NCBI RefSeq assembly: GCF_000739635.1
Contig: NZ_BATQ01000097.1
Coordinates: forward strand, 1 to 38,767
From: Verrucomicrobium sp. BvORR034
GTDB taxonomy: Bacteria; Verrucomicrobiota; Verrucomicrobiia; Verrucomicrobiales; Verrucomicrobiaceae
Direction of reading: 5' to 3'
Length of the DNA: 38,767 nt
Under the pieces are notes generated by a model. The model was given only the letters and a program-made list of their open reading frames with translations. It searched no databases and had not been told where the DNA came from. Both the position numbers and the translations under genes were made by a program. Positions 10,300 to 25,015 of the stretch are shown here, piece by piece. Every line of letters starts with the position of its first letter. Position 1 is the first letter of the stretch.

Positions 10300-11970
10300 C
10301 TACCTGCTCAAGTACGCCCGCCATCCACCGTATGAGGTAATGTCCGTGGCATCTGCCAGCACATAGGGTTCACACATGAAGCCTTTCACCCAGGTGCCAT
10401 CTGCTAGTTCCAGATTGCCTATGGTCATGGGGGCGGGAACTCCGGCGGTGAAACGGCCAAAAGCCTCGGCCGACAGCGTGTACACTTCGATCTCGATGGC
10501 GGAGCCGTCCGCCTTGACGCGCTCCAGGCCGGGCTTGGCGGGCTGAGTGTTGGCGAGTGCATAGAGCTTGTAGGCGGCAGCGGTGGTGGTGCGTTGCTGC
10601 AGGGTGGCACCCAGTTGGACGAGTTGCCCATGCAGTGGCTGGCCGTGCAGATGAGCTCCGACCACAGCGAGCGAGACGGGGCCTTCAGGTGACGCCATGC
10701 GCTTGGGCAAGGGCTCCCCCAGGAAACGAGCGGCGAGATCCAAGAGGCTGTCATCGGCAAAGGCCGGAGCCACCAGATTCAAACCGAAACCTACTCCGTG
10801 GCTCCAGTGGCCAGCGGGAACAGCGACTGCGGCCAAATCGAGCAGATTCACGAAGTTGTTATAGGTGCCCAGCCGGCTGTTGAGTTCCACAGGGTTCGCC
10901 TCCACCTCGGCGATGGTGTAAACACTGGGGACGGTGGGAACAACCAGGAAGTCCACCTTTTCGAAAACTTCATCGCTGATCCGCCTCAGTTCAGCCAGCC
11001 TGATCGCAGCCCGGTAGACCGCACTCGCTTTGAGGTCGCGACCTCCAAGGATGATTTTGGCCACGGTGGGATCCGCCTCCGCAGCGTGCTCTTCAAGCCA
11101 CTCTCCGACCGCCGCATAGCGCTCTGCCACCCAAGGGCCTTGGTAGAGCAGCGCGGCTGCCTCAGCGAAGGGGGCATAGTCGATCTCGATCTTGGTGCCA
11201 CCCAGGCTGGCCAGCTTGTCGCAAGCCGCTGCATAGAGTTCCGCGGCTTCACTGTCGCCGAAGAACTGCAACTGCTCCGGGAGGGGCACGGCAAAGGTGA
11301 AGGTGCCTTGACCCCGGCCATCGCGAACGGAGTGCCAGGGGCGGGACATGGGGTCCTGGGGATCGTAGCGACGCGCATGAGGCGCGAGCTCCCGCAGCTC
11401 GGCCACGGTCCTGGCCATGAGGGTGATGCAGTCCAGCGAACGACAGGCAGGAACGGCATTGCGGGTGCTGAGCACACCCTTGGTCGGCTTGTAACCCACG
11501 ATCCCATTGAGAATGCAGGGCACGCGACCCGAGCCTGCGGTGTCGGTACCGAGGGCAAAATCAACTTGCCCACTGGCCACTGCCACGGCCGAGCCGGAAC
11601 TGGAGCCTCCAGAGATGTAGGCAGGGTTCAGGACATTACGGCAGGGTCCCCACGGAGAGCGCACGCCTACCAGACCGGTGGCGAACTGGTCCAGCGTGGT
11701 CTTGCCCGCCACGACTGCTCCGGCTGCACGCAGAGAGGCGACCACGGGGTTGTCCTCTGGGGGTTGGTATCGGTAGGCTGGGCATCCTGCGGTGGTGGGC
11801 AGGGGTAGGGCATCGATGTTGTCCTTTACGGCAAAGACCTTGCCCGCGAGTGGGCCCGTGGCAGCCGCCAGTTCCGTCGCGAAGGCTTCAGGAGACACCA
11901 CGTCGATCCAGACGGGGCCGTTGCGTTCTGCGTAGAGGGCGGCATGGCGTTCAGCGGGGGAAGCGGGCAC
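10300..11970 (-). CDS. atzF: Allophanate hydrolase
   Basis: This 556-residue enzyme hydrolyses allophanate to two ammonia and two CO2. Residues 1-430 form an amidase-signature domain with the Ser-cisSer-Lys triad visible as K49 (VKDN), S123 (SGGSSSGS) and S147 (DTAGS). Residues about 440-556 match the AtzF/DUR1 C-terminal domain ('LAVVGAHLHGQPLHGQL', 'TAAAYKLYAL', 'MTIGNLELADGTWVKGFMCEP'), which decarboxylates the intermediate. It is the last gene of the minus-strand carboxylase operon, 118 bases after the carboxylase. The start is a GTG at 11970, chosen because the usual N-terminal helix begins soon after; the true start could differ by a few codons. Confidence 0.92.
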   Translation of the reverse strand: MPASPAERHAALYAERNGPVWIDVVSPEAFATELAAATGPLAGKVFAVKDNIDALPLPTTAGCPAYRYQPPEDNPVVASLRAAGAVVAGKTTLDQFATGLVGVRSPWGPCRNVLNPAYISGGSSSGSAVAVASGQVDFALGTDTAGSGRVPCILNGIVGYKPTKGVLSTRNAVPACRSLDCITLMARTVAELRELAPHARRYDPQDPMSRPWHSVRDGRGQGTFTFAVPLPEQLQFFGDSEAAELYAAACDKLASLGGTKIEIDYAPFAEAAALLYQGPWVAERYAAVGEWLEEHAAEADPTVAKIILGGRDLKASAVYRAAIRLAELRRISDEVFEKVDFLVVPTVPSVYTIAEVEANPVELNSRLGTYNNFVNLLDLAAVAVPAGHWSHGVGFGLNLVAPAFADDSLLDLAARFLGEPLPKRMASPEGPVSLAVVGAHLHGQPLHGQLVQLGATLQQRTTTAAAYKLYALANTQPAKPGLERVKADGSAIEIEVYTLSAEAFGRFTAGVPAPMTIGNLELADGTWVKGFMCEPYVLADATDITSYGGWRAYLSR

Positions 11971-12088
11971 GGGGAGGTAAAGGGTGAGAGGTAGAGGTCA
12001 GCGGTGGTCAAGATGATCAATCCAGCTATTCAAGCATGTCGCGTGCCTGTTTGGCCGGTGGATGCAGTAATTTTGGAAGGCTCCTGGA

Positions 12089-15000
12089 TCAGGCGGCGGT
12101 GTCCACCACGATCAGGGCCTGGCCGGACTGGACCTGCTTGCCCGCAGCCACCCGGATCTCCCGGACCCTGCCTGAAGCGGGGCTGACGATCTCGGCTTCC
12201 ATCTTCATGGCCTCCACAATGACGACAGCCTGGCCTTCTTTGACCTCTTGTCCGGGCTCCACGAGCACCTTCCAGAGGTTGCCAGTGAGCGGGGTGCGCA
12301 CCAGTTCGCACCCTTCCGGGGCCAGTTCATCCTCCACAGGTGGTGGCTCAGCCTCAGGTTCGGAGGCGACCACATTTTGCCCCGCTGCGGCCCAGCGTTC
12401 GCGCTCCTCCTGAAAGGCCTGGCGCTGAGTACTGCGGAAATCGGCGATGGACTCTGCGTTCTGTTCAAGGAAGTCCAGGTAGTCACCCAGTTTGAAAGTG
12501 GTTTCCTCAATCTTGAGCTGGAAGCGACCGAGGGGAAATTCCTCACGAAGCTTCAAGAGCTCCTCGGCACTCACCGGGTAGAAGCGAATCTGGTCGAAGA
12601 AGCGCAGCAGCCACGGTTTCCCTCCGGTGAAATCCTGGGTCTGACGCCAGGCGTTCCACATCTGGATGGTGCGGCCCACGAACTGGTAGCCGCCCGGCCC
12701 CTCCATGCCATAGACGCACATGTAAGCGCCCCCGATGCCCACAGCGTTCTCCGGTGTCCAGGTGCGGGCGGGATTGTACTTGGTCGTCACGAGCCGGTGC
12801 CTGGGGTCCAGCGGGGTGGCGACTGGGGCGCCCAGGTACACGTCACCCAGCCCCATGACCATGTAGCTGGCATCGAAGACGATGCGCTGCACCTCCTCAA
12901 TGCTCTCCAGGCCATTGATGCGGCGGATGAACTCGATGTTGCTCGGGCACCAGGGCGCATCGGGACGCACGGACTGCATGTACTTCTCAATGGCGAGCCG
13001 GGTGGCCGGATCATCCCAGGAAAGGGGAAGGTACACAATACGGGAGGGAACCTCGAAGTTCTGGAGGTCGCCCAATTCATCTTCCGCCCGGGCCAGCAGA
13101 GCGAGGAGTTCGGTCCGGGGCATGACCCGGTTGTCATAGTGGAACTGGAGGGAGCGGATGCCGGGGGTGAGGTCAATCAGGCCCGGCAGGTGTTGTTTCC
13201 TGACCCATTCCATGAGGGCGTGAACCCGGGCGCGCAGGGTGATGTCCAGCACGAGGGGGCCGTATTCCACGAGCAGGTACTTGTCTCCTGCGGCGCGGTA
13301 GCGTACCTCCACCTGGGTGTCGGTGGCGGGGCGCAGGGCCGCGACGGGGCTTTCAAGAGCCGCTGCGACGACAGGGCCGGGGATCTCGGCAGCCGTGGCA
13401 TAGTTCAGTGCGTCCAGTCCGGCGTCTGTGGTGCGTTCCGCGGCCTCGGCTTCCGTGAGGGTGACAGGAAGGAAGCGCAGGGTGTCGCCTGGCCGGAGTT
13501 GCCCCATCATCCAGCGGTCCGCCCGAATGATCACTGCGGGGCAGACGAATCCTCCGCAACTGGGGCCGTCCGGACCAAGGATGATCGGCATGTCGCCCGT
13601 GTAGTCGATCGCGCCAATCGCGTAGGCGTTGTCGTGGATGTTGGATGGGTGCAGACCGGCCTCTCCGCCATCCGTGCGGGCCCAGCGGGGCTTGGGGCCA
13701 ATGAGGCGGATGCCGGTGGGGTTGGAGTTGTAGTGCACTTTCCACGCCGTGGCGAAGAAGGTCTCAATGTCCTCGTTCGTGAAGAAGTCGGGCGCGCCAT
13801 GCGGGCCGTAGGTGACGCGGATGATCCACTCGTTTTTCCAGCTCGGAGCGGCAACTTCCGCGGCCGGGGCGATGCCCGTCTCCACGGCTGCCCCCAGGTG
13901 AATGATGTCGCCCGCGCGCAGAGCGCGACCTGCGTGTCCGCCAAAGCCACCCAAGGTGAAGGTGGAGCGACTGCCGAGATACACCGGGACATCCAGGCCG
14001 CCGCTCACGGCCAGATAGGCGCGCACGCCCGTGTCGCCCAGACGGCCTGTTTTCAAGATGCCACCGGCGGGGATGGCGATGGCCGTGTCCATCGGCACCG
14101 CTTCGCCGTTCAGGGTCGGTTTCATGCGGGCCCCAGTGAGCGCCACGGTGCTGGCCTGCTGGAACTTCAACGTAGGGCCAGCCATGGTTATTTCCAAACC
14201 CGCGGCATGATCGTCGTTGCCCACGAGGCGGTTTGCCAGACGGAAGGAGACATCGTCCATGGGCCCGGACGGCGGCACGCCGATGTCCCAATAGCCGAGA
14301 CGGCCGGGGAAGTCCTGAACGGTGGTCACTGCGCCCGGTTCCAGCACCTCCATGGTGTGGGGCTGCCAGGCAAATTCCGAGAGCATGCGGGTGGTCGCGT
14401 GGCCCGCTAGGAAGGGGGCGTGCTGCAGGACGGACTGCAGGTAGCTGCGGTTGGTCTCAATGCCTGCCAGAGTCGTGCCCTCCAAGGCGCTGCTCAGGGC
14501 TGCCACGGCCTGCTCGCGATCCGCGGCATGCACAATGACCTTGGCCACGAGCGGGTCATAGAAGGGCGAGACGGTCACCCCCTGGGTCACCCAGGTCTCC
14601 ACCCGGGCCTCCGGCGGCCAGGCGGCGGCGGTGAGCAGGCCGCTGCTGGGCTGGAAGTTCCGGGCAGGATCTTCTGCATAGACACGTGCCTGAATGCTGT
14701 GTCCTCGAGAAACGGGCAGTGTTTCTGGCCAGAATCCGAGATCCCCCGCGGCCAGACGCACCATCCACTCCACCAGATCGATGCCCAGCACCTCCTCGGT
14801 GACCCCATGCTCCACCTGGAGACGTGTGTTCACCTCGAGGAAATAAAACTTCCTGCTGTCAGCATCGTACACGAACTCGACAGTGCCCGCGGAGCGGTAG
14901 TTCACCGCCTTGCCCAGCCGCTCCGCGCAGGAGAGCAGTTCGGCCCGTCCCTCTGTGGACAGATGCGGGGCAGGGGTCTCTTCGATGACCTTTTGATTGC

Positions 15001-15703
15001 GGCGCTGCACCGAGCAGTCGCGTTCACCCAGAGCAAGCACACGTCCTGCACCATCGCCGAAGATCTGCACCTCGATATGCCGGGCGTGGCGGACGAACTT
15101 CTCCAGGAACAGACCGCTGTCCTTGAAGTTGGCCATGCTGAGTCGTTGCACGGATTCGAACTGCGCCCGCAGATCCGAATCGTTCTCACAGACCCGCATG
15201 CCGATTCCACCGCCACCAGCCGTGCTCTTGAGCATGACGGGATAGCCGATGCCTTGCGCTCTTTCCACCGCCTCATCCACGTTAGCAAGCAGTCCGGTTC
15301 CCGGAAGCAACGGCACTCCTGATTCCATGGCGATCTCCCTGGCCGTGTGCTTGAGGCCAAACTTGACCATCTGATCGGGCGTGGGGCCGACGAAGGCAAT
15401 GCCCGCGGCTTCACAGGCACGAGCAAACTCAGGATTTTCACTGAGGAATCCGTAGCCCGGATGAATGGCCGTGGCTCCGGTGGCCTTGGCGGCTGCCAAG
15501 ACTTTTTCGGTATCCAGGTAGCTTTCCTTGGGGGCTGGCGGACCAATCAGGACAGCTTCGTCTGCCGCATCGACATGCAAAGATGCCTTGTCTGCTTCAG
15601 AATACACAGCAACGGACCCGTATCCGAGCCGCTTGAGAGTGCGGGAGACTCGGCAGGAGATGGCGCCGCGATTGGCAATGAGGACCTTTGGCGTGGAAGA
15701 CAT
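12089..15703 (-). CDS. Biotin-dependent urea carboxylase family protein (possibly guanidine carboxylase)
   Basis: This 1204-residue protein has the full single-chain order. A biotin carboxylase/ATP-grasp domain comes first (about 1-450; 'VLIANRGAISCRVSRTLKRLG', 'GGGGIGMRV', 'FLEVNTRLQVEHGVTEEV'), then a carboxyltransferase made of KipA-like and KipI-like halves (about 460-1080), and a biotinyl domain with EAMKM, biotin on K1167. It carboxylates urea to allophanate or guanidine to carboxyguanidine, using ATP and bicarbonate. The two DUF1989 genes immediately upstream are the partners of guanidine carboxylases (carboxyguanidine deiminase CgdAB), so guanidine is the favoured substrate. Sequence inspection alone cannot settle this. 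Allophanate hydrolase follows downstream. Confidence 0.93.
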   Translation of the reverse strand: MSSTPKVLIANRGAISCRVSRTLKRLGYGSVAVYSEADKASLHVDAADEAVLIGPPAPKESYLDTEKVLAAAKATGATAIHPGYGFLSENPEFARACEAAGIAFVGPTPDQMVKFGLKHTAREIAMESGVPLLPGTGLLANVDEAVERAQGIGYPVMLKSTAGGGGIGMRVCENDSDLRAQFESVQRLSMANFKDSGLFLEKFVRHARHIEVQIFGDGAGRVLALGERDCSVQRRNQKVIEETPAPHLSTEGRAELLSCAERLGKAVNYRSAGTVEFVYDADSRKFYFLEVNTRLQVEHGVTEEVLGIDLVEWMVRLAAGDLGFWPETLPVSRGHSIQARVYAEDPARNFQPSSGLLTAAAWPPEARVETWVTQGVTVSPFYDPLVAKVIVHAADREQAVAALSSALEGTTLAGIETNRSYLQSVLQHAPFLAGHATTRMLSEFAWQPHTMEVLEPGAVTTVQDFPGRLGYWDIGVPPSGPMDDVSFRLANRLVGNDDHAAGLEITMAGPTLKFQQASTVALTGARMKPTLNGEAVPMDTAIAIPAGGILKTGRLGDTGVRAYLAVSGGLDVPVYLGSRSTFTLGGFGGHAGRALRAGDIIHLGAAVETGIAPAAEVAAPSWKNEWIIRVTYGPHGAPDFFTNEDIETFFATAWKVHYNSNPTGIRLIGPKPRWARTDGGEAGLHPSNIHDNAYAIGAIDYTGDMPIILGPDGPSCGGFVCPAVIIRADRWMMGQLRPGDTLRFLPVTLTEAEAAERTTDAGLDALNYATAAEIPGPVVAAALESPVAALRPATDTQVEVRYRAAGDKYLLVEYGPLVLDITLRARVHALMEWVRKQHLPGLIDLTPGIRSLQFHYDNRVMPRTELLALLARAEDELGDLQNFEVPSRIVYLPLSWDDPATRLAIEKYMQSVRPDAPWCPSNIEFIRRINGLESIEEVQRIVFDASYMVMGLGDVYLGAPVATPLDPRHRLVTTKYNPARTWTPENAVGIGGAYMCVYGMEGPGGYQFVGRTIQMWNAWRQTQDFTGGKPWLLRFFDQIRFYPVSAEELLKLREEFPLGRFQLKIEETTFKLGDYLDFLEQNAESIADFRSTQRQAFQEERERWAAAGQNVVASEPEAEPPPVEDELAPEGCELVRTPLTGNLWKVLVEPGQEVKEGQAVVIVEAMKMEAEIVSPASGRVREIRVAAGKQVQSGQALIVVDTAA

Positions 15704-15737
15704 GGGAGAGATGAGAGTGAGTGCTGGGAGAAGCTTC

Positions 15738-15869
15738 AGCCGCCTAAAGGCGGTACTCCAACCGGCTTCGATGGGGGGCTGAGGGTGGAGTGGAGGGGAT
15801 GCCGTTCTGGATCGCGCTTCCTGCCACTTGAGTTTCGCAGCAGGGTTGGAGTACCGCCTTTAGGCGGCT
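15738..15869. repeat. 132-bp inverted-repeat element (REP/MITE-like)
   Basis: Two perfectly complementary 26-base arms (15738-15763 and 15844-15869) enclose 80 bases. Each arm contains its own small palindrome, CCGCCTAAAGGCGG. The element fills most of the 173-bp gap between the second DUF1989 gene and the carboxylase gene. It looks like a dispersed REP-type element rather than a terminator, because no T tract follows and it sits inside an operon. In the transcript it would fold into a very stable hairpin. Confidence 0.8.
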
Positions 15870-15876
15870 CAGGAGA

Positions 15877-16515
15877 TCAGTTCCAAATCAACAATCTGAT
15901 GGGTGTCGGATTGTAAGCATTGCAGGGGTTGTTGAGCTGCGGGCAGTTGGAGATCAATGCGACCACATCCATCTCGGCCTTCATCTCCACGTACTTGCCC
16001 GCATCGGAAATGCCGTCTTCAAAGGTGAGCTTGCCATCGGGAGTGACAGGCACATTCATGAAGAAGTTCACGTTGCTGGTGAGGTCGCGCTTGGAGTAGT
16101 CATGGCCGTACTCCGCCATCTGGAGGAGGAAGGTGTCGCGGCAGTTGTGCATGTAGCGCTTTTCGAGGGCATAGCGCACCATGTTGCTCTCGGCAGCGCA
16201 GGCGCCGCCCAGGGTGTCGTGACGGCCGCAGGTGTCTGCGGTGATGGTGAGCATGGGGTTCAGCTCGGTGGAGAGCAGGGTGGATCCGGTGGTGAGGTAG
16301 ATGGCTCTCTGCTCGCGGATGGTGTCCACGGCACTGTAGCGCTCGTCCGCATTGGCGGCGCTGTAGAAGAGAATGTCCACGGCCTGGTTGCCCTCCAGGT
16401 CCACGATGCGGAAGGTTTGCCCCTTCTTGATCTCGTACATCCAGCCGTCACCGGCTTCGATGACTTCGTCGTAGGTTGCTTGCTCGGGATTGAGTGGGCT
16501 CAAGGTCAGGCTCAT
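15877..16515 (-). CDS. DUF1989 urea-carboxylase-associated protein (UAAP2 type; carboxyguanidine deiminase subunit)
   Basis: This 212-residue cytosolic protein has the DUF1989 core: '[31 protein letters not shown]', '[37 protein letters not shown]' and '[28 protein letters not shown]'. It ends with '[25 protein letters not shown]'. Such pairs were long annotated as urea amidolyase-associated proteins; published work on this family showed the pair acts as carboxyguanidine deiminase, turning carboxyguanidine into allophanate. The Cys/His residues of the CGRHDT...C and NPCN motifs are all present. It is 53 bases downstream of its paralogue, consistent with a heteromeric enzyme. Confidence 0.9.
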
Positions 16516-16568
16516 GGCGGGGACAGTGAAAAGTGGGAGTGAAAGTGATTGGTGGAGGGTGCTCCGCG

Positions 16569-17306
16569 TTACATGAAATAACGATCGGTAAGGATCAGGC
16601 CGCGATCGTTCTCGGGGCGGAACTTGCGCACCACGTCGTCAGGCCCAGCGGGCTCGGAGGAGTACACCACCAGATGCACAGGCTTGGGATCATAGGTGCC
16701 GCAGGGGGCGAGTGGGTGAGGGCAGGTGTTCAGCACCACGAGCGTGTTCAGTCCGGCGCGCAGATCCACGTGAGCACCGGCCTTGGCGTGACTTTCGTCA
16801 AAGTGCAGACCGCCAGTGTCATCCACGGTCACTTTGCTGAAGAAGTTCGCATTCGGTACTAGGTCCTTGGTACCCAGTCCATATTTGCCCAACTCCACCA
16901 GGAAGCTGTCGCGCCCGTTCCGATGGTACTTGTTGCGGTGCTCCTGAAAGGTCGCCTTGCCATACTTCCGCTCAACCAGGGAGGCCGTGCTGTGACCGCA
17001 GATTGTATCATGCCAGCCGCTGGTGTCGTCTGTGACGGAAACAAGAATGCGGCCCATGTCCGAGTACAACGCGCGACCGGTCGTGAGAAAGGCCACGTGC
17101 TGGGCCTTGAGCGTGTCAGACATGTTGTAGCGCTCCACCATCAACTCAAAGTTGAAAAACAGGGCCGACACGTTGGCACCGCCTTGGGGGTCGATGATGC
17201 GCAATGTGCTGCCGCGCTTTAGCACATGCGACCAACTGGCACCGCCGAGCACGACCTCGCGGAAACGGACTTTGTCTTCAGGGATGTCAGGGGTGGGGGA
17301 GAACAT
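16569..17306 (-). CDS. DUF1989 urea-carboxylase-associated protein (UAAP1 type; carboxyguanidine deiminase subunit)
   Basis: This 245-residue paralogue of the next gene has the same core with different details: '[34 protein letters not shown]', '[24 protein letters not shown]', '[33 protein letters not shown]' and '[27 protein letters not shown]'. The His, Cys and Asn positions expected in the family are retained. It should pair with the downstream subunit to deiminate carboxyguanidine. Order on the strand is regulator, this gene, second subunit, carboxylase, allophanate hydrolase, which is a complete guanidine-to-ammonia path. The gap of 66 bases to the regulator shows no promoter that I could recognise. 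Confidence 0.9.
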
Positions 17307-17372
17307 ATGGGAATGTGGAAGGTGGAGTTTTTGGATTCGGAATGGAGGGGGGACTCGTGGAGAGAGCTCGGC

Positions 17373-17876
17373 TTACTCAGCGGGAGAAGCAGCACGGCGG
17401 ATCTTTTTGTGGGGGGCAGGGGTGGGGGATTCCCCGGCTTCGTGAAGGGGAGGCAGCAGGGTGGTGCTGAGCTGGAGCTGACCGTGACGCACGCCTTTGA
17501 GGGCGCTCATTTCTTCCTTGATCTCCCGCAGGATGCGGGCCGGGCCCTGTACGAGCATGATCTGCAGGCTCTGGTTGTCCTCCAGATGCACGAGCTGGAT
17601 CGTCACGATCTCCCGCAGGTATTTGTGCTGGATGTCGGTCAGCGTGTTCTGCAGGTTCCGCTTCTGGTGATCATAGATCAGGCTGATCACGCCCATCATC
17701 ACGGTGTCTCCCAGCTCACTGGCATAGGCTACGAGGTGATCTCGCACCAGAGCGGTCAGGCATTGGGACCGGTTCGCGAAACCGCGGCCCGTCGCCATGC
17801 GGTCCAAGCCTTCGACGGCGCTGGCGGGCATGGAGACACTGAACCGGATGAGATTGGAGCCTTGGCGCTTGGGCAT
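17373..17876 (-). CDS. NikR-like ribbon-helix-helix regulator lacking nickel ligands
   Basis: This 167-residue protein has a CopG/RHH DNA-binding domain (about 8-50; 'IRFSVSMPASAVEGLDRMATGRGFANRSQCLTALVRDHL'). An ACT-like C-terminal domain follows that aligns without gaps to E. coli NikR through 'YDHQKRNLQ', 'IQHKY' and 'KGVRHGQLQ'. At the four NikR nickel positions (H76, H87, H89, C95) it has H84, L95, H97 and S103, so two ligands are gone. A 20-residue Pro/Lys/Arg-rich tail follows. ATG 17876 is chosen since the RHH strand starts soon after; an upstream frame extends 35 codons but reads as leader sequence. As first gene of the guanidine operon it is probably its local repressor, sensing something other than nickel. 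Confidence 0.88.
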   Translation of the reverse strand: MPKRQGSNLIRFSVSMPASAVEGLDRMATGRGFANRSQCLTALVRDHLVAYASELGDTVMMGVISLIYDHQKRNLQNTLTDIQHKYLREIVTIQLVHLEDNQSLQIMLVQGPARILREIKEEMSALKGVRHGQLQLSTTLLPPLHEAGESPTPAPHKKIRRAASPAE

Positions 17877-18031
17877 GGGGTGCTGGGTGTGAGGAATGTG
17901 CGGATTCGTAACACGAAACATGCCAAGAGACATCGGTGAGTGACCTGGGGACGAGATTTTTTCGAGCAAAGTTCGGGCCAAGAGCCAGGTGGCTCCCAGA
18001 CATTTCCTTTGCGCCCCTCCCCCTTTTCTTT
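17877..18031. promoter_or_regulatory. Divergent promoter region with two palindromes
   Basis: This region lies between the NikR-like gene and the GreA-like gene. It holds TTCGT-AAC-ACGAA (17905-17917), about 30 bases upstream of the regulator start, and GAGCCA-GG-TGGCTC (17982-17995). The first is a good candidate operator for the regulator on its own promoter. No guanidine riboswitch consensus was recognised on either strand. Confidence 0.4.
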
Positions 18032-19915
18032 ATGTTCACGGTTCCCATGATGTCCCCTGAAGTCGAGAAACTGGTCAATGCCGGCAAGCTGTCGCGCGCC
18101 GATGGTGAAAAGCTTTCCAACCTCCCTGTGGGAGCGTTCTGCCAGCACAAGAGCTGGGGTGCAGGTTGCATCGCGGAATGGGACTTGCTGGGAGACCGGG
18201 TGGTGATCGACTTCGAAGGCAAGCCAGGGCACTCCATGAAAATTGGGTTTGCCGTGGGCTCGTTAGCGCCGCTGGATTCGGAGCACATCCTGGCCCGCCG
18301 GGTGGGTGATCTGCCCGCTCTGCAGGCCATGGCCAAGGAGCGTCCTGCGGAACTCGTGACGCTGGCCCTGAAGAGCAGCGGCAAGACGATGTCTCTGGAC
18401 GCGCTGGAAAGTCTCCTCATTCCCCGCGTCATCAAGGAGGCCGACTACAAAGCCTGGTGGAGTGCCGCCAAAAAGGCCTTGAAGGACAAACGCCACATCG
18501 TGGTGCCCGCCAAGCGCACGGAGTTGCTGGTGCTGCGTGACGAGGACGTGAGACATGGCAATGCCATGCTGGATGACCTGAGGAATGCCCGCGACCTCAG
18601 GGCAAAGCTGAATGCCCTGGCCCGCATCCAGAAGGATCTCGACCTCTTTGAGAACCACGCTTCAGATCTCATTCCCGTTTTCCAGGAACTGGATGTTACA
18701 GTTCGCAAGTCCTGGAAGCTGCAGTTGAAGGAAGCTCTGAACCTTCTGCTCTCCCGCGATGAGCTGCTGGATTCCGCGAAGGGCGCCAAGCTTCCCGAAG
18801 GCTCTCTGACGGTGGAACAACTCCTGCGTGACGCCAAGCCGCAGCTGGCAGATGCCGTGAATGGCCTGCCAGTCGCGCTGCTCAGCCGCGTGTACAAGGC
18901 CTTCCCGGCTGCGTTCCCGGATCGCGCCTGGGTTCAGGAATCGCTGAATCATCTCACCAAAACGGGCGGCCGCGCTGTGGCCGAGATCGCGGCGGTGCTG
19001 GATGCCAACGATGAGATTGACCTGCTCGCCGACTTCTTGAAGAAGGCCGTGCGCAACCGTCAGCTCAGCACGGACCTCCTCATCTGGATGTGCAAGGAGC
19101 GCAAAGGCAAGGCAGAGGGTGTGTTCGACATGGACCTCGGCAACGCCATCATCAGCGCCCTCGAGGACGACCACATCGCTGGCGGACCGAAGCGCACCGG
19201 CCGTCTGCATGACGCTTTCGCCGAAGACATCGGCCTGGTGGGTGAGATGGTGGGCGATGCCGATGCCGATGAATTGCGCCTGTTTGCCAAGCGCATCCTT
19301 TCCAGCCCGGTGTTTGACGAGTTGACCCGCCGTTCCCTCATGGGCCGCCTCATCAAAGCCCGGCCGGAGACGCAGGAACTGATGGACGACACTGGCAACA
19401 ACCAGGCTGCGTCCCTCGTCGTCTCCTGGGACAGCATGGAGAAGCGCAAGATCGAGCTTGAAGAGCTTGTGCGCGTCAAAATCCCGCAGAACAAGAAGGA
19501 CATCCAGATTGCCCGTGAATACGGCGATCTTCGGGAGAACTTCGAGTACAAATCCGCCCGTCAGCACCAGGCGGTGTTGCTGCGCATGCAGTCCACCTAT
19601 GAGCGCGAATTGCGCCGCGCCCGCGGCACGGACTTCGTCGGTGTCAGCACAGAGACCGTCGGGATTGGCATCATCGTGGACATTCAGGACGTCGCGACCG
19701 GAAAGACTGAGACCCAGACGATCCTCGGTGCTTGGGATGGCGATCCGGACCAGAGCATTCTCTCCTACCTGTCCGAAATGGCCAAAGCCCTCATCGGCAA
19801 GAAAGTCGGCGACGAGGCCGAACTGCCCACGGATACCCACGGCACTCGCAAGGTGAAGGTGGTCAGCATTCGCCCCTACCGGACGCATGCTGAGGCCGCA
19901 CCTGTTGCCGGTTGA
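18032..19915 (+). CDS. Long GreA/GreB-domain transcription elongation factor
   Basis: This protein has about 627 residues, against about 158 for ordinary GreA. The first 450 or so residues are largely helical and of unknown fold. The C-terminal part, from about residue 470, contains the GreA coiled coil with its acidic tip ('AREYGDLRENFEYKSARQHQAVLLRMQSTYERELRRARGTDF', with the D and E that act in the RNA polymerase channel). The FKBP-like Gre C-terminal domain follows ('ALIGKKVGDEAELPTD...RKVKVVSIRPY'). It should rescue backtracked RNA polymerase. A similarly extended GreA is known in Chlamydiae, fitting a PVC origin. Starts at 18032, 18047 and 18050 are all possible; none has a Shine-Dalgarno sequence. 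Confidence 0.85.
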   Translation: MFTVPMMSPEVEKLVNAGKLSRADGEKLSNLPVGAFCQHKSWGAGCIAEWDLLGDRVVIDFEGKPGHSMKIGFAVGSLAPLDSEHILARRVGDLPALQAMAKERPAELVTLALKSSGKTMSLDALESLLIPRVIKEADYKAWWSAAKKALKDKRHIVVPAKRTELLVLRDEDVRHGNAMLDDLRNARDLRAKLNALARIQKDLDLFENHASDLIPVFQELDVTVRKSWKLQLKEALNLLLSRDELLDSAKGAKLPEGSLTVEQLLRDAKPQLADAVNGLPVALLSRVYKAFPAAFPDRAWVQESLNHLTKTGGRAVAEIAAVLDANDEIDLLADFLKKAVRNRQLSTDLLIWMCKERKGKAEGVFDMDLGNAIISALEDDHIAGGPKRTGRLHDAFAEDIGLVGEMVGDADADELRLFAKRILSSPVFDELTRRSLMGRLIKARPETQELMDDTGNNQAASLVVSWDSMEKRKIELEELVRVKIPQNKKDIQIAREYGDLRENFEYKSARQHQAVLLRMQSTYERELRRARGTDFVGVSTETVGIGIIVDIQDVATGKTETQTILGAWDGDPDQSILSYLSEMAKALIGKKVGDEAELPTDTHGTRKVKVVSIRPYRTHAEAAPVAG

Positions 19916-19934
19916 TCCATCTGAAAGCAATTGC

Positions 19935-19970
19935 AGCCCCCGTCCGGCATGTGCTGGGCGGGGGCTTTTT
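19935..19970 (+). terminator. Rho-independent terminator of the GreA-like gene
   Basis: The stem AGCCCCCG (19935-19942) pairs with CGGGGGCT (19959-19966), has a 16-base loop and is followed by five T residues. It lies 20 bases after the stop codon. Confidence 0.88.
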
Positions 19971-20109
19971 GTTGAGCAGGGGATTGGTGTCCGGACCAGC
20001 AGGAGCGAATTCACCCTTCCTCTTGCCGTCCTGCTTTGGCTTGGCTTCTGCTTCCTGAGAGCTTCCTCGGTGCGCCCTCCGCAAACTCGCAGTTCATCCC
20101 TGGCCTATC

Positions 20110-21105
20110 ATGCAAGGTTCCCCCTCCAACGTCATCAGCACGGCCCAGGCCCTTGCCCTGACCTTCAGCGGCATGAGAGAACTGGGGATCCTGGACCGGG
20201 CGCTCTATGGCAACATTCTGCAGCGCATTCTGGTGCAGCATCCGGAGTACCTTGGTGTCTGGACGGTTTGGGAGCCCAATGCGCTGGATGGTCGTGATCG
20301 CGAGTTTGCCCATGCTCCGGGTCACGATGGGACGGGGCGTTTCGTGCCTCTGTGGAACAGGGCGGGTGGCGTGGTTCATCTGGAGCCCAACGTGAACTAC
20401 GATGTGCCGGGGCAGGGGGACTGGTATCTGGTGCCCACCCGGTGTGGCAGGGAGACGGTGATGGATCCCTATCAGTTCCCGGTGGCGGGACGCAAGGAGT
20501 TCATCATCAGTCAGGTGGCACCGATCTTTCACCAGGGCCGCTGTGTCGGAGCGGCGGGAGTCGACATCGAGATGGACCGACTGTTGCAGCCAGAAGCAGA
20601 GGAGTTGGAGGAAAGTCTGCATCGCGGATTTGTGCGTCTGGATGCGAGAGGCAGGATCGACCACTTGAGTGCGCGTACCCGGCAGCTGTTAAGTTCCTTT
20701 GTGGGCCGTCGGTTGGTTCAGGAAATACCGCCCGGCATCCTCCGGCAGATCGCCAGGGTGCGCGGGCTGCCGGGCACGGCGGAGCTGGCCCCACTGCGCC
20801 GGGGCAGTGACTCGCTGCGACTGAAGCATGCGCCGCATCCAGAGTCCGGGATGTCCCTGCTGATCGTGGAGGAGGATCATCGTGCCAGAAGTGGGATCGA
20901 GGAGCCCACTGATGCCCTCACTGCCCGGGAACGTGAGGTGTTGCAGTGGCTTCAAGAGGGGAAGAGCAATCCTGAGATTGGGGTCATTTTGGGGATCAGC
21001 ACGCACACCGTGAAGCGGCATGTGGAGCGGGTGCTGGCAAAGCTGGGAGTCGAGAGCCGCCTTGCCGCCGCCCTGCAGTCGCAGCCCAAAAAGCACGTGG
21101 CATAG
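20110..21105 (+). CDS. Soluble Cache-domain LuxR-family transcriptional regulator
   Basis: This 331-residue protein has no signal peptide or membrane segment. Residues about 10-160 match a Cache sensor: '[18 protein letters not shown]', '[20 protein letters not shown]', '[29 protein letters not shown]'. The C-terminal segment (about 270-325) is a LuxR/GerE helix-turn-helix ('[44 protein letters not shown]'). Cache domains are normally extracytoplasmic, so here the ligand is probably sensed in the cytosol. The Arg that contacts the carboxylate in amino-acid-binding Cache domains appears missing, while W, Y and the late Asp are kept, which suggests an amine-like ligand. It is first in the plus-strand set and likely controls the ligase, amidohydrolase and binding-protein genes. 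Confidence 0.85.
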
Positions 21106-21152
21106 GTCCGCCGACCTATATCGAGACCGGGACGATTGCCGCACTGTCCGGC

Positions 21153-22520
21153 ATGACTTCAACGACTCCCGCCGAACTCACGGCCATCAAGGAAGACCTC
21201 ATTGCCAAAGGGGTGAAATATTGCATCGGCGCGTATGTGGACATCCACGGCGTGCCCAAGGGCAAAGTGGTGCCGGTAAACCACTTCGAGAACTTTGCTC
21301 AAGGTTCAGAGCTGTACACGGGCTACGCACTGGATGGCCTGGGGCAGAGACCGAATGATGATGAACTCTCCAGCGTGCCGGATCTCAGCCGAGGCGTTCA
21401 GTTGCCCTGGCAGCCGGAGGTCATGTGGTACCCTGCGGATCTCGCCTTCCACGGGCAGCCCTACGAAGTCAGCACGCGGGTGGCCTTTGGTCGCGTGCTG
21501 GAGCAGGCCCGCTCCATGGGCTTCGGGTTCAACCTCGGGATCGAGTGCGAAGTTTACTTTGTGAAGCAGGAAGAGGGGCGGTTGGTGGTGCCCAACCCGG
21601 ATGACAACCTCATGAAGAGTTGTTATGACGTGAAGCGCTTCATGGATGTGTATGGCCTGGTGGATCGCATCGCGACCACCATCAACGGTCTGGGATGGGA
21701 TCTGTACTCACTGGATCACGAGGACGGGAACTCACAGTTCGAGTTCGACTTCAAGTTCTCCGACGGCCTGACCATGGCAGACCGCTATGTGTTCTTCCGC
21801 TTCCTGGCCAAGAAGCTGGCAGCAGATGCCGGGTTGCTTGCCACCTTCATGCCGAAGCCTTTCGCAGACAAGACGGGGAATGGGGCGCACTTCAACATGT
21901 CGCTGAGCGATCTGGAGACCGGGCGCAACCTCTTCAAGGCGGCAACTGGGGAACCTGATGCCTATGGCTTGGGGCTCACGAGCTTGGGATACTCCTTCAT
22001 CGCGGGAATTCTGCGGCACGGTCGAGCATTGTGCGCTGCGTTTGCTCCCACGGTGAACTCCTACAAGCGGCTCATCCGTCGTGGGGCCATGGGGTACTAT
22101 TCCTGGGCTCCGGTGTTCAATTCGTTCGGCACCAACAACCGCACCAATTCCGTGCGGGTGCCGATGGCTGGCGGTCGTTGCGAGTCGCGGAATGCGGATT
22201 CCTCCTGCAACCCGTACCTCGCCGGGGCGCTGGTGCTGGCAGCGGGATTGGAAGGGGTGCGGGAGGGACTCATGCCCGGTCAACCCCAGACGGAGAATCT
22301 CTACGAACTGACGGATGAGCAACTGGCCGAGCGCGGGGTGCAAGCTCTGCCGCGCACGCTGGCAGAGGCGGTGCAGGCCTTTGAGGATGACCCCTTCACT
22401 GAGCAGGTACTGGGCTCTGCGCTGAAGAAGGAGTTCATCGAGTGCAAACGCGCCGAGTGGGAGGAGTACCACCTGACCATCAGCCCGTGGGAAGTGCAGA
22501 AGTACGCGAGTCTCTTTTGA
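21153..22520 (+). CDS. glnT: GlnT-type glutamine synthetase-like ligase
   Basis: This 455-residue protein belongs to the glutamine synthetase superfamily, GlnT branch: '[16 protein letters not shown]' near the N-terminus, the catalytic-domain 'GIECEVYFV', '[30 protein letters not shown]', '[21 protein letters not shown]', 'NSYKRL' and '[10 protein letters not shown]'. It is shorter than GlnA and has no adenylylation-loop Tyr that I can place. Enzymes of this branch make glutamine from ammonia or gamma-glutamylmethylamide from methylamine. Here it would trap the nitrogen released by the neighbouring degradative genes. The 28-base gap to the creatininase-family gene suggests one operon. Ammonia or alkylamine specificity cannot be read from the sequence. 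Confidence 0.88.
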
Positions 22521-22548
22521 TGAACTCCCAACCCCACTTCCTCGCGTC

Positions 22549-23340
22549 ATGATGCCGTCTTGGTTTGCCCAACTGCCAGCGCCTCTCAATCAGAGCCCCG
22601 TTCTGCTGGAGCGCCTGGCCTGGCCTGATGCTGAGTCCACCCTGCAGGAGGTGCTCCTGCTCCCGGTGGGGGCCATGGAGCAGCACGGTCCCCATCTGCC
22701 ATTGAATACAGACACGGTCATTGCCGAGTCCACCTGTCAGCTTGCTTCAGCCCTCACTGGGGCACCGGTCCTGCCCGCCCTGGGGTACTCCGTCTCGCTC
22801 GGTCACACCGTGAAGTGGCCGGGGACCTTCTCCTTGTTTCATGAAACCCTCATGCTCACCGTGCGGGAGATCGCCCGGTGGGCGGCCGACTCCGGCTGGA
22901 AGCGGCTCCTCATCGTGAACTCCCACTACGGAAACGATGCCGCCCTCCGCTGCGCGGTGGACCGCCTCCGCCATGACCTAGGCGGAAGCCTTCTCACGGC
23001 CACCCGGAACACCTGGGACCTCACTCCGGAAATTGCCGGGCGTTTCACGCACGATGCGGCCGACTGGCATGCCAATGAGGCGGAGACATCGCTGATGTTG
23101 TTCCTAGATCCCTCTTCCGTGGTGCGCGAACGCATGGCCATCGCAGATGATCCGGATCGCACGGCGGGGTGTGTCTTTCCCCACCGGGTGGCCCACACGA
23201 GTCTCAATGGCGTCACAGGGCAGCCCAGCCTGGGCACTGCGGAGCAGGGAGCTCTGCTGATCTCCCGCATGGGGGAGGCGCTGGCGGATCTCATTCAGAG
23301 GGCCCGTGCGGAGGCTCCACCCTTGAGCTGGTCACCCTGA
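22549..23340 (+). CDS. Creatininase-family amidohydrolase
   Basis: This 263-residue cytosolic protein is of the creatininase/MftE family. Metal-site motifs are all visible: 'PVGAMEQHGPHLPLNTDT' (E44, H46, D55), 'NSHYGN' (H126) and 'DWHANEAETS' (H174, E177/E179). Family members hydrolyse cyclic or linear amides (creatinine to creatine, formamide intermediates, the mycofactocin precursor). Its neighbours, a GlnT-type ligase and a nitrogen-compound binding protein, and the guanidine operon 5 kb away, make a guanidino amide such as creatinine a reasonable but unproven substrate. The first ATG of an ATGATG pair is used. Confidence 0.9.
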   Translation: MMPSWFAQLPAPLNQSPVLLERLAWPDAESTLQEVLLLPVGAMEQHGPHLPLNTDTVIAESTCQLASALTGAPVLPALGYSVSLGHTVKWPGTFSLFHETLMLTVREIARWAADSGWKRLLIVNSHYGNDAALRCAVDRLRHDLGGSLLTATRNTWDLTPEIAGRFTHDAADWHANEAETSLMLFLDPSSVVRERMAIADDPDRTAGCVFPHRVAHTSLNGVTGQPSLGTAEQGALLISRMGEALADLIQRARAEAPPLSWSP

Positions 23341-23424
23341 CAGCGTCACCCCTCCGGGTCCCCCGGACTCCATCCACTCATCTCCATCAGACAACCCATC
23401 CAACCCACATCCATCCAGAAAGCC

Positions 23425-24399
23425 ATGAAAACACTCGCCAAACGCCTGTTGTCCATCGCCGCCGTTGCGTTGTCCTCCGCCTGTCTCCATGCGGAACCGC
23501 TGAAGATCGCCTATTCCGACTGGCCGGGATTCACCCTCATCGAGGTGGCCAAGCAGAAGGGGTGGTTCAAAGAAGCCGGGGTCGATGTCGAACTCGTCTG
23601 GTTTGACTATCTCCCGTCCCTGGATGCCTTTGCCTCGGGCAAGGTGGACGCGGTGACCTGCGTCACGACGGATGCCATGGTGACGGGAGCCAACGGTGCC
23701 AAGAGCAAGATCATCTGCCTGCTGGACTACAGTGATGGCGGCGACATGATCATTGGCAAAGCAGGGATCAACTCCATCAAGGATCTCAAGGGCAAAAAAG
23801 TGGCGCTGGAGCTCACGCTCGTGGAGCATCTGCTGCTGCTCAAGGCGCTGGAGGCAAACGGCATGGCCCCATCCGATGTGGAACTGGTGAACACGGCGAC
23901 CAATGAGACCCCGCAGACCCTGGTATCCGGAAATGTGGCCGCCATCGGGGCGTGGTACCCTGTTTCCAACCAGGCGCTCAAGGCGGTGGCGGGGTCCAAG
24001 CCCCTCTTTACCAGCGGCGACGCTAAAGGGCTCATCTATGACGGGCTCTGCGTGAACCCGGTGAGCTACAGCCAGCGCAAGGCTGACTGGGAAAAGGTGG
24101 TGAAAGTGTACTACAAGTGTGTGGACTACATCCTGGACGAGAAAACCAAGGAGGATGCGGCCTCGATCCTCGCCGCCAAGGTGGGAGCCGATGTGAAGGA
24201 TTATCTGGCCGCGATGAAAGGGACCCACTTTCTGACCCTCGCGGAAGCCAAAACCGCCTACAAGAAGGGCACGGGACTGGACTCCGTCTATGGCTCCATG
24301 GCGCTGGGCAACAGGTTCAACCTGGACAACAAGGTGTACACGGAGTCGCAGAAACCGGAGAGCTACTTGGTTCCCGGCATCGTCAACAGTCTCAAGTGA
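23425..24399 (+). CDS. ABC transporter substrate-binding protein (NMT1/SsuA-like; urea-carboxylase-associated type)
   Basis: This 324-residue protein carries a signal peptide (MKTLAKRLLSIAAVALSSACLHA, predicted cut before EPLK). Its periplasmic-binding fold begins 'LKIAYSDWPGFTLIEVAKQKGWFKEAGVDVELVWFDYLPSLDAFASGKVDAV'. This is the NMT1/SsuA/ThiY type, and it resembles the binding proteins found with urea carboxylase clusters. The permease and ATPase are not in this window, so the protein either works with distant subunits or is an orphan. It is last in the plus-strand set and is preceded by an 84-base C/A-rich leader that looks unstructured. It would capture guanidine or a related compound. 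Confidence 0.9.
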   Translation: MKTLAKRLLSIAAVALSSACLHAEPLKIAYSDWPGFTLIEVAKQKGWFKEAGVDVELVWFDYLPSLDAFASGKVDAVTCVTTDAMVTGANGAKSKIICLLDYSDGGDMIIGKAGINSIKDLKGKKVALELTLVEHLLLLKALEANGMAPSDVELVNTATNETPQTLVSGNVAAIGAWYPVSNQALKAVAGSKPLFTSGDAKGLIYDGLCVNPVSYSQRKADWEKVVKVYYKCVDYILDEKTKEDAASILAAKVGADVKDYLAAMKGTHFLTLAEAKTAYKKGTGLDSVYGSMALGNRFNLDNKVYTESQKPESYLVPGIVNSLK

Positions 24400-24532: not shown

Positions 24533-25015
24533 ATGGTAAAATTTGAAAGCATTCTTGCCGGGGGACAAACCGGGGCGCAGCGGGCCGCGCTGGATTGGGC
24601 GATCGCCCACAATGTGCCGCATGGTGGGTGGTGTCCCAAGGGCAGAAAGGCCCTGGACGGCGTGTTGGATGCCAAGTACCAGCTCAAGGAAACGGAAAAA
24701 GATGTGACCCTGGAGCGCACGGAGTGGAACGTGCGGGATGCCGACGCCACGGTGGTTTTCACCTTTGCAGAGAAAGCCACCGGCGGAGCTCTGAAGTCGG
24801 TTACTTTCGCCCGCAAACTGAAAAAGCCCTGTCTGCACCTGCATCGGGGCATCCTGGCCGGCTCTGAAAAGCTGGTCGCCTTCATGGACAAGCACCGGGT
24901 TCGTCGTCTGAACATTGCGGGTTCTCAGGAGGAAAAAGAACCTGGTATCTACGTTTGGGTGACCTCCACCCTCGACAAAGCCGAAGGGATCATGATGCGC
25001 ATGGGCGAGCTTTAA
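24533..25015 (+). CDS. YpsA/SLOG-superfamily protein (putative molybdenum-cofactor carrier family)
   Basis: This 160-residue cytosolic protein begins with the nucleotide-binding signature 'ILAGGQTGAQRAALDWAIAHNVPHGGWCPKG', continues with 'RDADATVVFT' and 'FARKLKKPCLHLHRG', and ends with 'LNIAGSQEEKEPGIYVWV'. This is the circularly permuted YpsA/SLOG family annotated as putative MoCo carrier. The family probably binds a nucleotide or nucleotide-derived ligand; molybdenum-cofactor binding is a weak annotation. It lies 133 bases after the binding-protein gene and may be its own transcription unit. The start codon has a weak GAGG 11 bases upstream. Confidence 0.85.
   Translation: MVKFESILAGGQTGAQRAALDWAIAHNVPHGGWCPKGRKALDGVLDAKYQLKETEKDVTLERTEWNVRDADATVVFTFAEKATGGALKSVTFARKLKKPCLHLHRGILAGSEKLVAFMDKHRVRRLNIAGSQEEKEPGIYVWVTSTLDKAEGIMMRMGEL

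Follow-up and report, generated by a model that had tools for sequence, protein, structure and literature searches.

A guanidine catabolic operon in Verrucomicrobium sp. BvORR034 headed by a NikR-family regulator without a nickel site

A contig of 38,767 nucleotides from Verrucomicrobium sp. BvORR034 (NZ_BATQ01000097.1, positions 1 to 38,767, hereafter the window) carries a minus-strand operon predicted to convert guanidine to ammonia, and a plus-strand group with a GlnT-type ligase, a creatininase-family hydrolase and the substrate-binding protein (SBP) of an ATP-binding cassette (ABC) importer. The most unusual part of the locus is a NikR-family regulator that has no nickel site. Our explanation for the locus as a whole, which we consider somewhat probable, is a guanidine-to-ammonia operon under a NikR protein that has been turned into a sensor of guanidine or of a metabolite of the pathway. 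The sequences show the enzyme set, one carboxylase pocket residue, the gene linkage, the loss of nickel ligands, the clade formed by the regulator and the pairs of operator half-sites. An initial annotation, which had described a two-operon system for scavenging nitrogen from guanidino compounds, is partly supported as a whole: all the genes that it named are present (Pfam and NCBIfam profile matches), and the four minus-strand enzymes score above their NCBIfam cut-offs.

In transcription order the minus-strand operon encodes the NikR-family regulator, the DUF1989 proteins UAAP1 and UAAP2, a carboxylase and an allophanate hydrolase. Both UAAP1 (16569..17306; TIGR03425, 325.5 bits, cut-off 205.95) and UAAP2 (15877..16515; TIGR03424, 338.3 bits, cut-off 284.7) exceed their model cut-offs, as expected of the two subunits of a carboxyguanidine deiminase, and the allophanate hydrolase (10300..11970) reaches 700 bits on TIGR02713 (cut-off 511.05). 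The predicted guanidine carboxylase (12089..15703, 1204 amino acids) combines biotin carboxylase, carboxyltransferase and biotin carrier parts and scores 1884.9 on TIGR02712 (cut-off 1303.85). It aligns over its full length with K. lactis urea amidolyase (PDB 5i8i), and its Asp700 (codon at 13604-13606, minus strand) falls opposite Asn1330, which we take to be the number of the discriminating residue in that enzyme. All 41 relatives with sequence covering this position also have Asp. According to a review, guanidine carboxylases have an aspartate and urea carboxylases an asparagine at one carboxyltransferase residue (PMC12186494). The pocket comparison, which had been set beforehand, thus gave the guanidine-carboxylase type, and together with the enzyme set it upholds the earlier claim that the operon holds every enzyme from guanidine to ammonia. 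By its NCBIfam names ('urea carboxylase' for TIGR02712, and UAAP) the operon would instead be a urea amidolyase. This is highly improbable given an Asp where urea carboxylases carry Asn, the DUF1989 pair and the guanidine-II riboswitches upstream of homologous carboxylases, and on the sequence evidence the operon almost certainly leads from guanidine to ammonia.

The regulator gene (17373..17876, minus strand, 167 amino acids) had already been listed as a regulator; the gene is indeed present, but its NikR-family identity without a nickel site had been missed. The frame 17373-17981, which opens with TTG, probably extends too far upstream; the ATG at 17876 is the conserved start. Pfam (NikR_C, 4.7e-24), PDB alignment and modelling agree on the NikR fold, that is, a ribbon-helix-helix (RHH) domain with an ACT-like NikR_C domain, and the protein scores above the cut-off of PRK04460 (NikR). 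In Foldseek the AlphaFold model (mean predicted local distance difference test 82.4, predicted template modelling score 0.64) matched NikR chains best. The nickel ligands of E. coli NikR are His76, His87, His89 and Cys95, and its response needs square-planar ligation by three nitrogens and one sulphur (PMC7055735). The corresponding tetrad of the window protein is His-Leu-His-Ser instead of His-His-His-Cys.

This loss accompanies the guanidine cluster. The window's genome has a single copy of NikR_C. Across its family the domain is present in 15 of the 68 genomes, beside DUF1989 in every one of the 15; DUF1989 itself occurs in 17, and the two without NikR_C are G011, with the full cluster, and G035, with a single diverged DUF1989. 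A tool-drawn phylum sample of 288 genomes, in which related genomes are not independent, contained NikR_C in 98 and DUF1989 in 36, with NikR inside the cluster in 28 of the 36. None of 39 cluster-linked NikR proteins (28 from the phylum sample and 11 from further family genomes) has the full nickel tetrad. Cys95 is missing from all 38 that reach this position (the sequence from G313 ends before it), and 14 tetrad patterns are found among the 39. The unlinked NikR_C genes of the phylum sample keep the tetrad in 64 of 73 cases (34/35 plus 30/38), the nine exceptions being G151 (HHHY), one HHYC and seven of a separate lineage.

When one genome of each species was scanned with a query built from the linked proteins, 326 regulator relatives emerged, and the best 80 were kept (about ten of these loci duplicate contigs of the phylum or family set, and the two sets were not summed). 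The best 80 come mostly from Verrucomicrobiota and also from Gammaproteobacteria, Alphaproteobacteria, Zoogloeaceae, Burkholderiales and Desulfobulbus. Seventy-two lack the tetrad, and DUF1989 is in the locus for 64 of them; five of the remaining eight are in genomes with DUF1989 elsewhere. Eight have the tetrad, with DUF1989 in the locus for none. A tree built from 177 distinct sequences placed all 95 linked or tetrad-less best-80 sequences in one clade (0.996, FastTree local support only), with the G151 regulator as the only additional member and the seven-member tetrad-less lineage in a different clade. The clade is marked by Arg23 (39/39), Gln102 (38/38 linked and 72/72 tetrad-less best-80 proteins) and a C-terminal LPP tail; ordinary NikRs of the best-80 set have HHHC, Asp91 and Arg102. 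Glu91, present in 38 of the 39 linked Verrucomicrobiota-set proteins, was considered as a guanidinium-binding residue and set aside because it is not conserved in Proteobacteria.

Some members depart from the general pattern. The G151 regulator (L117 4495-4830) lacks its N-terminal part and lies in a genome without DUF1989, apparently a decaying remnant of a lost operon. The second tetrad-less lineage (L259-L265, in G125, G139, G158, G160, G210, G219 and G320) has the patterns DRAS, NRTS and DRLS and belongs to one genus without DUF1989. In Methylomonas and Methylococcus metagenome-assembled genomes (MAGs), a tetrad-less NikR adjoins a MOSC/ferredoxin-reductase gene (L176 702-1193 and L187 2244-2738).

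Upstream of the regulator lies a putative NikR-type operator, GTGTTA-N16-TCACAC (17887..17914, read on the minus strand), 10 bp ahead of the ATG. The binding site of E. coli NikR is GTATGA-N16-TCATAC (PMC7055735). The half-sites of the window sequence are variants of it; the sequence is the sole match in 38,767 bases, with 0.11 expected, and no second half-site pair at 20-23 bp occurs in the window. Both congeners, G065 and G067, keep its half-sites while the spacer sequence differs. Among 93 upstream regions of tetrad-less regulators (partly de-duplicated from 112), 26 match GTATGA-N16-TCATAC at 10 or more of 12 positions (0.45 in shuffles); by the same test the N17 spacer is found in 16 regions and the remaining spacers in 1-9. 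For ordinary NikR genes, 2 of 39 upstream regions reach this level. When exact pairs of the degenerate half-site GTRTKA were counted, a pattern widened after the upstream sequences had been inspected (GTATGA-N16-TCATAC was not widened), 8, 12, 21 and 8 regions had pairs at 20, 21, 22 and 23 bp, respectively, and none was found at 10-19 or 24-28 bp upstream of the tetrad-less regulators in inverted, direct or everted orientation. The corresponding values for ordinary NikR genes were 2, 3, 4 and 0 of 39, with single pairs at 18 and 19. A NikR-type pair was present in 21 of 40 Verrucomicrobiota loci. For proteobacterial regulators, which often lie inside the operon, no site was found, and there is no such pair directly upstream. 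Upstream of the plus-strand genes and of a distant ABC operon in the genome no exact match to the degenerate pattern was found, and control of these genes by the NikR operator was rejected on this ground.

No Rfam match at gathering score, and hence no guanidine riboswitch, was found in the window, where a diverged aptamer below threshold is possible. The window's genome has no guanidine-I riboswitch, and no guanidine riboswitch was found in ten other Verrucomicrobiota loci (L043, L113-L116, L058, L054, L052, L101 and L094); riboswitch control of the window operon was rejected on these results. It should be noted that L043 and L113-L116 carry DUF1989 without NikR and are also without a riboswitch, so that 'NikR or riboswitch' is an incomplete rule. 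Of nine clusters tested outside Verrucomicrobiota, L156 and L190 were negative and seven (L147, L157, L154, L163, L164, L189 and L166) have a guanidine-II riboswitch ahead of the carboxylase; guanidine-I was not found in these seven. In L147, L154, L157, L163, L164 and L166 a NikR relative separates the importer genes from the deiminase genes, with hydrolase and GlnT genes also intervening in L157; in L189 it stands before the importer. In the enterobacterial operons described so far, guanidine-I precedes the importer and deiminase genes and guanidine-II the carboxylase and hydrolase genes (PMC12186494). Because NikR lies mostly between importer and deiminase genes in guanidine-II clusters where guanidine-I was not found, we propose that the NikR clade may replace guanidine-I. 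In Parvibaculum and a proteobacterial MAG, guanidine-I is near the DUF1989 operon (L219 and L220) and a NikR relative ends a separate importer-hydrolase-GlnT operon, an arrangement that fits a shared signal and also a different one.

We infer DNA binding, the ligand, the direction of control and the role of the GlnT genes as follows. The locus would take up guanidine, carboxylate it at the expense of ATP with biotin, deiminate the product through the DUF1989 pair and hydrolyse allophanate to ammonia. A NikR-family repressor that no longer reads nickel would bind the NikR-type operator before its own operon and would respond to guanidine or to a pathway intermediate (carboxyguanidine or allophanate, for example), a task performed by riboswitches in other bacteria. 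The ligand-free protein would bind the operator and the ligand would release it. This is likely the reverse of NikR logic, since induction by the substrate is what one expects of a catabolic operon. Very probably the NikR-family regulator controls the operon, and guanidine itself is a possible ligand at rather less than even odds. We put forward with the same reserve the wider proposal that the clade is a protein guanidine receptor in which the nickel site was dismantled and rebuilt to hold guanidinium, with the DNA-binding half and operator left in place, and which replaced guanidine-I riboswitches across Verrucomicrobiota and several proteobacterial lineages.

Two other functions of the regulator were considered. 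As a nickel-status switch, it would turn on the nickel-free carboxylase route when nickel is scarce and urease idle. The NikR family, the NikR-type operator and the automatic NikR annotation all agree with this, as do the two tetrad histidines left in the window protein and the urease alpha gene beside the cluster in G014. However, Cys95 is gone from all linked sequences that reach it and the rest of the tetrad is free to vary, the unlinked NikRs of the phylum mostly retain it, and the response described for NikR requires three nitrogens and one sulphur (PMC7055735); owing to the lost ligands this function was set aside as very unlikely in spite of the family and the G014 urease operon. Sensing of another signal is less remote, although still unlikely; the signal could be ammonium or glutamine status, a different metal, or whatever the GlnT/hydrolase module acts on. 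It would suit Parvibaculum and two MAGs (one from Rhodobiaceae, one proteobacterial), in which NikR ends an SBP-permease-ATPase-hydrolase-GlnT operon and DUF1989 is elsewhere, beside guanidine riboswitches in L219 and L220 and with none reported in L221. Against it, DUF1989 is in the locus for most tetrad-less best-80 regulators (64/72), and GlnT accompanies only 31 of those 64.

Several observations weigh against a regulator repurposed to guanidine. Ligand binding, operator binding and effects on expression are all predictions from sequence. The clearest NikR-type pairs are limited to the 21 Verrucomicrobiota loci mentioned above, and the upstream regions of proteobacterial regulators reach only 7-8 of 12 positions. 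In the phylum sample, 8 of 36 DUF1989 genomes have no NikR in the cluster, and no DUF1989 was found in the genomes of three tetrad-less best-80 members (L176, L187 and L181). The clade shows no single obvious residue for binding guanidine, since Proteobacteria do not conserve Glu91. Five linked loci have HHHY and six best-80 loci HHHT, so that some members could still bind metal, and the separate tetrad-less lineage in seven genomes without DUF1989 means that loss of the nickel site is not unique to a guanidine role.

Gene linkage beyond chance ties the plus-strand genes for GlnT, the creatininase-family hydrolase and the binding protein to the guanidine operon. Ten of the 68 family genomes have a GlnT of at least 65% identity, and in all ten it shares a contig with the DUF1989 cluster (which is divided between contigs in G008 and G007), so the two gene groups do occur together in relatives; in an eleventh genome, G012, a GlnT match of only 41% identity is located away from the cluster. 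Several clusters of the phylum sample are single gene runs, and G238 (L101) has SBP, permease, ATPase, hydrolase, GlnT, UAAP1, UAAP2, carboxylase and allophanate hydrolase in one run with a divergent regulator. Among the 64 DUF1989 loci with a tetrad-less NikR in the best-80 set, many of which stop at contig ends, the binding protein was found in 42, the permease and ATPase in 44 each, GlnT in 31, the hydrolase in 26 and a CntA/GbcA-like Rieske oxygenase in 24. GlnT and the hydrolase recur jointly (both 25, GlnT alone 6, hydrolase alone 1, some loci being cut by contig ends). The description of the locus as broader than the standard guanidine cluster is supported in spirit, as relatives add the ABC importer and often the oxygenase. 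The Rieske gene is present in 8 of the 68 family genomes and in none of the window's genus. It adjoins GlnT and the hydrolase in L043, L044, L045, L047, L048 and L050, and Rieske loci often also contain genes for a TIM-barrel protein, an FGE-sulfatase-like protein, an SDR and a PuuE-like deacetylase. Together these genes make up an undescribed catabolic set next to guanidine degradation. In L165, L167 and L175 a tetrad-less NikR is the last gene of an SBP-permease-ATPase-hydrolase-GlnT operon, with DUF1989 elsewhere in the genome.

The GlnT-type (type III) glutamate-amine ligase (21153..22520, plus strand) scores 578.5 bits on TIGR03105 (cut-off 469.6), and its nearest solved chain is a glutamate-methylamine ligase (9qur). 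The creatininase-family metal-dependent amidohydrolase (22549..23340, plus strand; PF02633) scores 112.5 bits on the creatininase model TIGR04448, whose cut-off is 235, and is also below the MftE cut-off. At the metal-site position that we take to be Glu122 of creatininase it has Gly, with Gly, Thr or Ser across family relatives; the presumed Trp154 and Trp174 positions are both Trp in the window protein and variable among 45 relatives. True creatinine degradation was rejected for want of support from the NCBIfam cut-offs. The earlier suggestion that the hydrolase feeds in larger guanidino amides is not borne out by these scores and by the Glu to Gly change, and the trapping of methylamine by GlnT is likewise no more than a possibility. 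Most likely, this recurrent accessory pair would gamma-glutamylate and deglutamylate an N-substituted guanidine or an amine freed from it, by analogy with the aniline and isopropylamine pathways, and in relatives oxidation may follow. Alternatively, GlnT could be a glutamine synthetase that assimilates the ammonia of the pathway, with the hydrolase and binding protein as unrelated passengers. The name of TIGR03105, type III glutamate-ammonia ligase, suits this, but its closest solved relative, the joint recurrence of GlnT with the hydrolase and the Rieske oxygenase that joins them in relatives make it unlikely, if worth keeping in mind.

The remaining genes qualify the two-operon layout: both gene groups are real, but they are not adjacent operons because a GreA/GreB-domain gene (17936-19915, plus strand; frame listed as 659 amino acids, with a GreA/GreB-type C-terminal half) intervenes. 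It recurs in G065 and G067, the other cluster-bearing genomes of the genus, and nothing connects it with guanidine. The plus-strand group begins with a cytoplasmic PDC-domain LuxR-type regulator (20110..21105), orthologues of which adjoin the module in G065, G067 and G011, and ends with the NMT1/SsuA-type SBP (23425..24399; profile match). In relatives the SBP gene is followed by permease and ATPase genes; in the window neither adjoins it, and a full SBP-permease-ATPase set is found in the window's genome and genus on a different contig, with an SBP 69% identical to that of the window. Directly 3' of the window SBP gene is a gene for a cpYpsA (SLOG-type) protein (24533-25015, plus strand), as also in G065 and G067. 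In four genomes (L052, L053, L055 and L056) the guanidine operon is flanked by genes from a single cluster family; urease alpha, a UreG-like protein and an ABC transporter of branched-chain type are among those of L052, which also has an Rfam match to the 5' ureB small RNA.

The clade offers a concrete candidate for a protein guanidine sensor with a defined putative operator, and cultivable carriers among the best-80 loci include Haloferula, Luteolibacter, Parvibaculum and Desulfobulbus strains. If the proposal is true, the ligand domain of a metal sensor can be reused for an organic cation. Care is also needed with linked-clade proteins, whose annotation makes them nickel regulators. Use of further guanidino compounds is suggested by the ABC importer, GlnT and hydrolase linked to the operon, plus the Rieske oxygenase in relatives. 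A literature search that left most subscription papers aside found no published report of a guanidine-linked NikR or of this gene set.

Compared with known systems, the window hydrolase shares PF02633 with the creatininase/MftE family, and the metal-ligand motifs (EQHG, D55, H126 and E179) are invariant in 45 relatives, whereas it falls under both NCBIfam cut-offs and has Glu122 replaced. GlnT shares TIGR03105 with gamma-glutamylmethylamide synthetase/GlnT (9qur and 7cql, its best PDB matches) but is accompanied by a creatininase-family hydrolase and a guanidine cluster. The window has all the enzymes and the Asp of the guanidine carboxylase pathway, and its relatives also have the ABC importer genes; the examples on record are governed by guanidine-I or guanidine-II riboswitches (PMC12186494), in place of which the window has a NikR-family regulator and a putative operator. 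With the NikR proteins of E. coli, P. horikoshii and H. pylori the regulator has in common the RHH and ACT fold, NikR_C and an N16 NikR-type operator. It differs from them in that its clade lacks the nickel tetrad, carries Arg23, Gln102 and the LPP tail, and is tied to guanidine catabolism rather than to nickel uptake.

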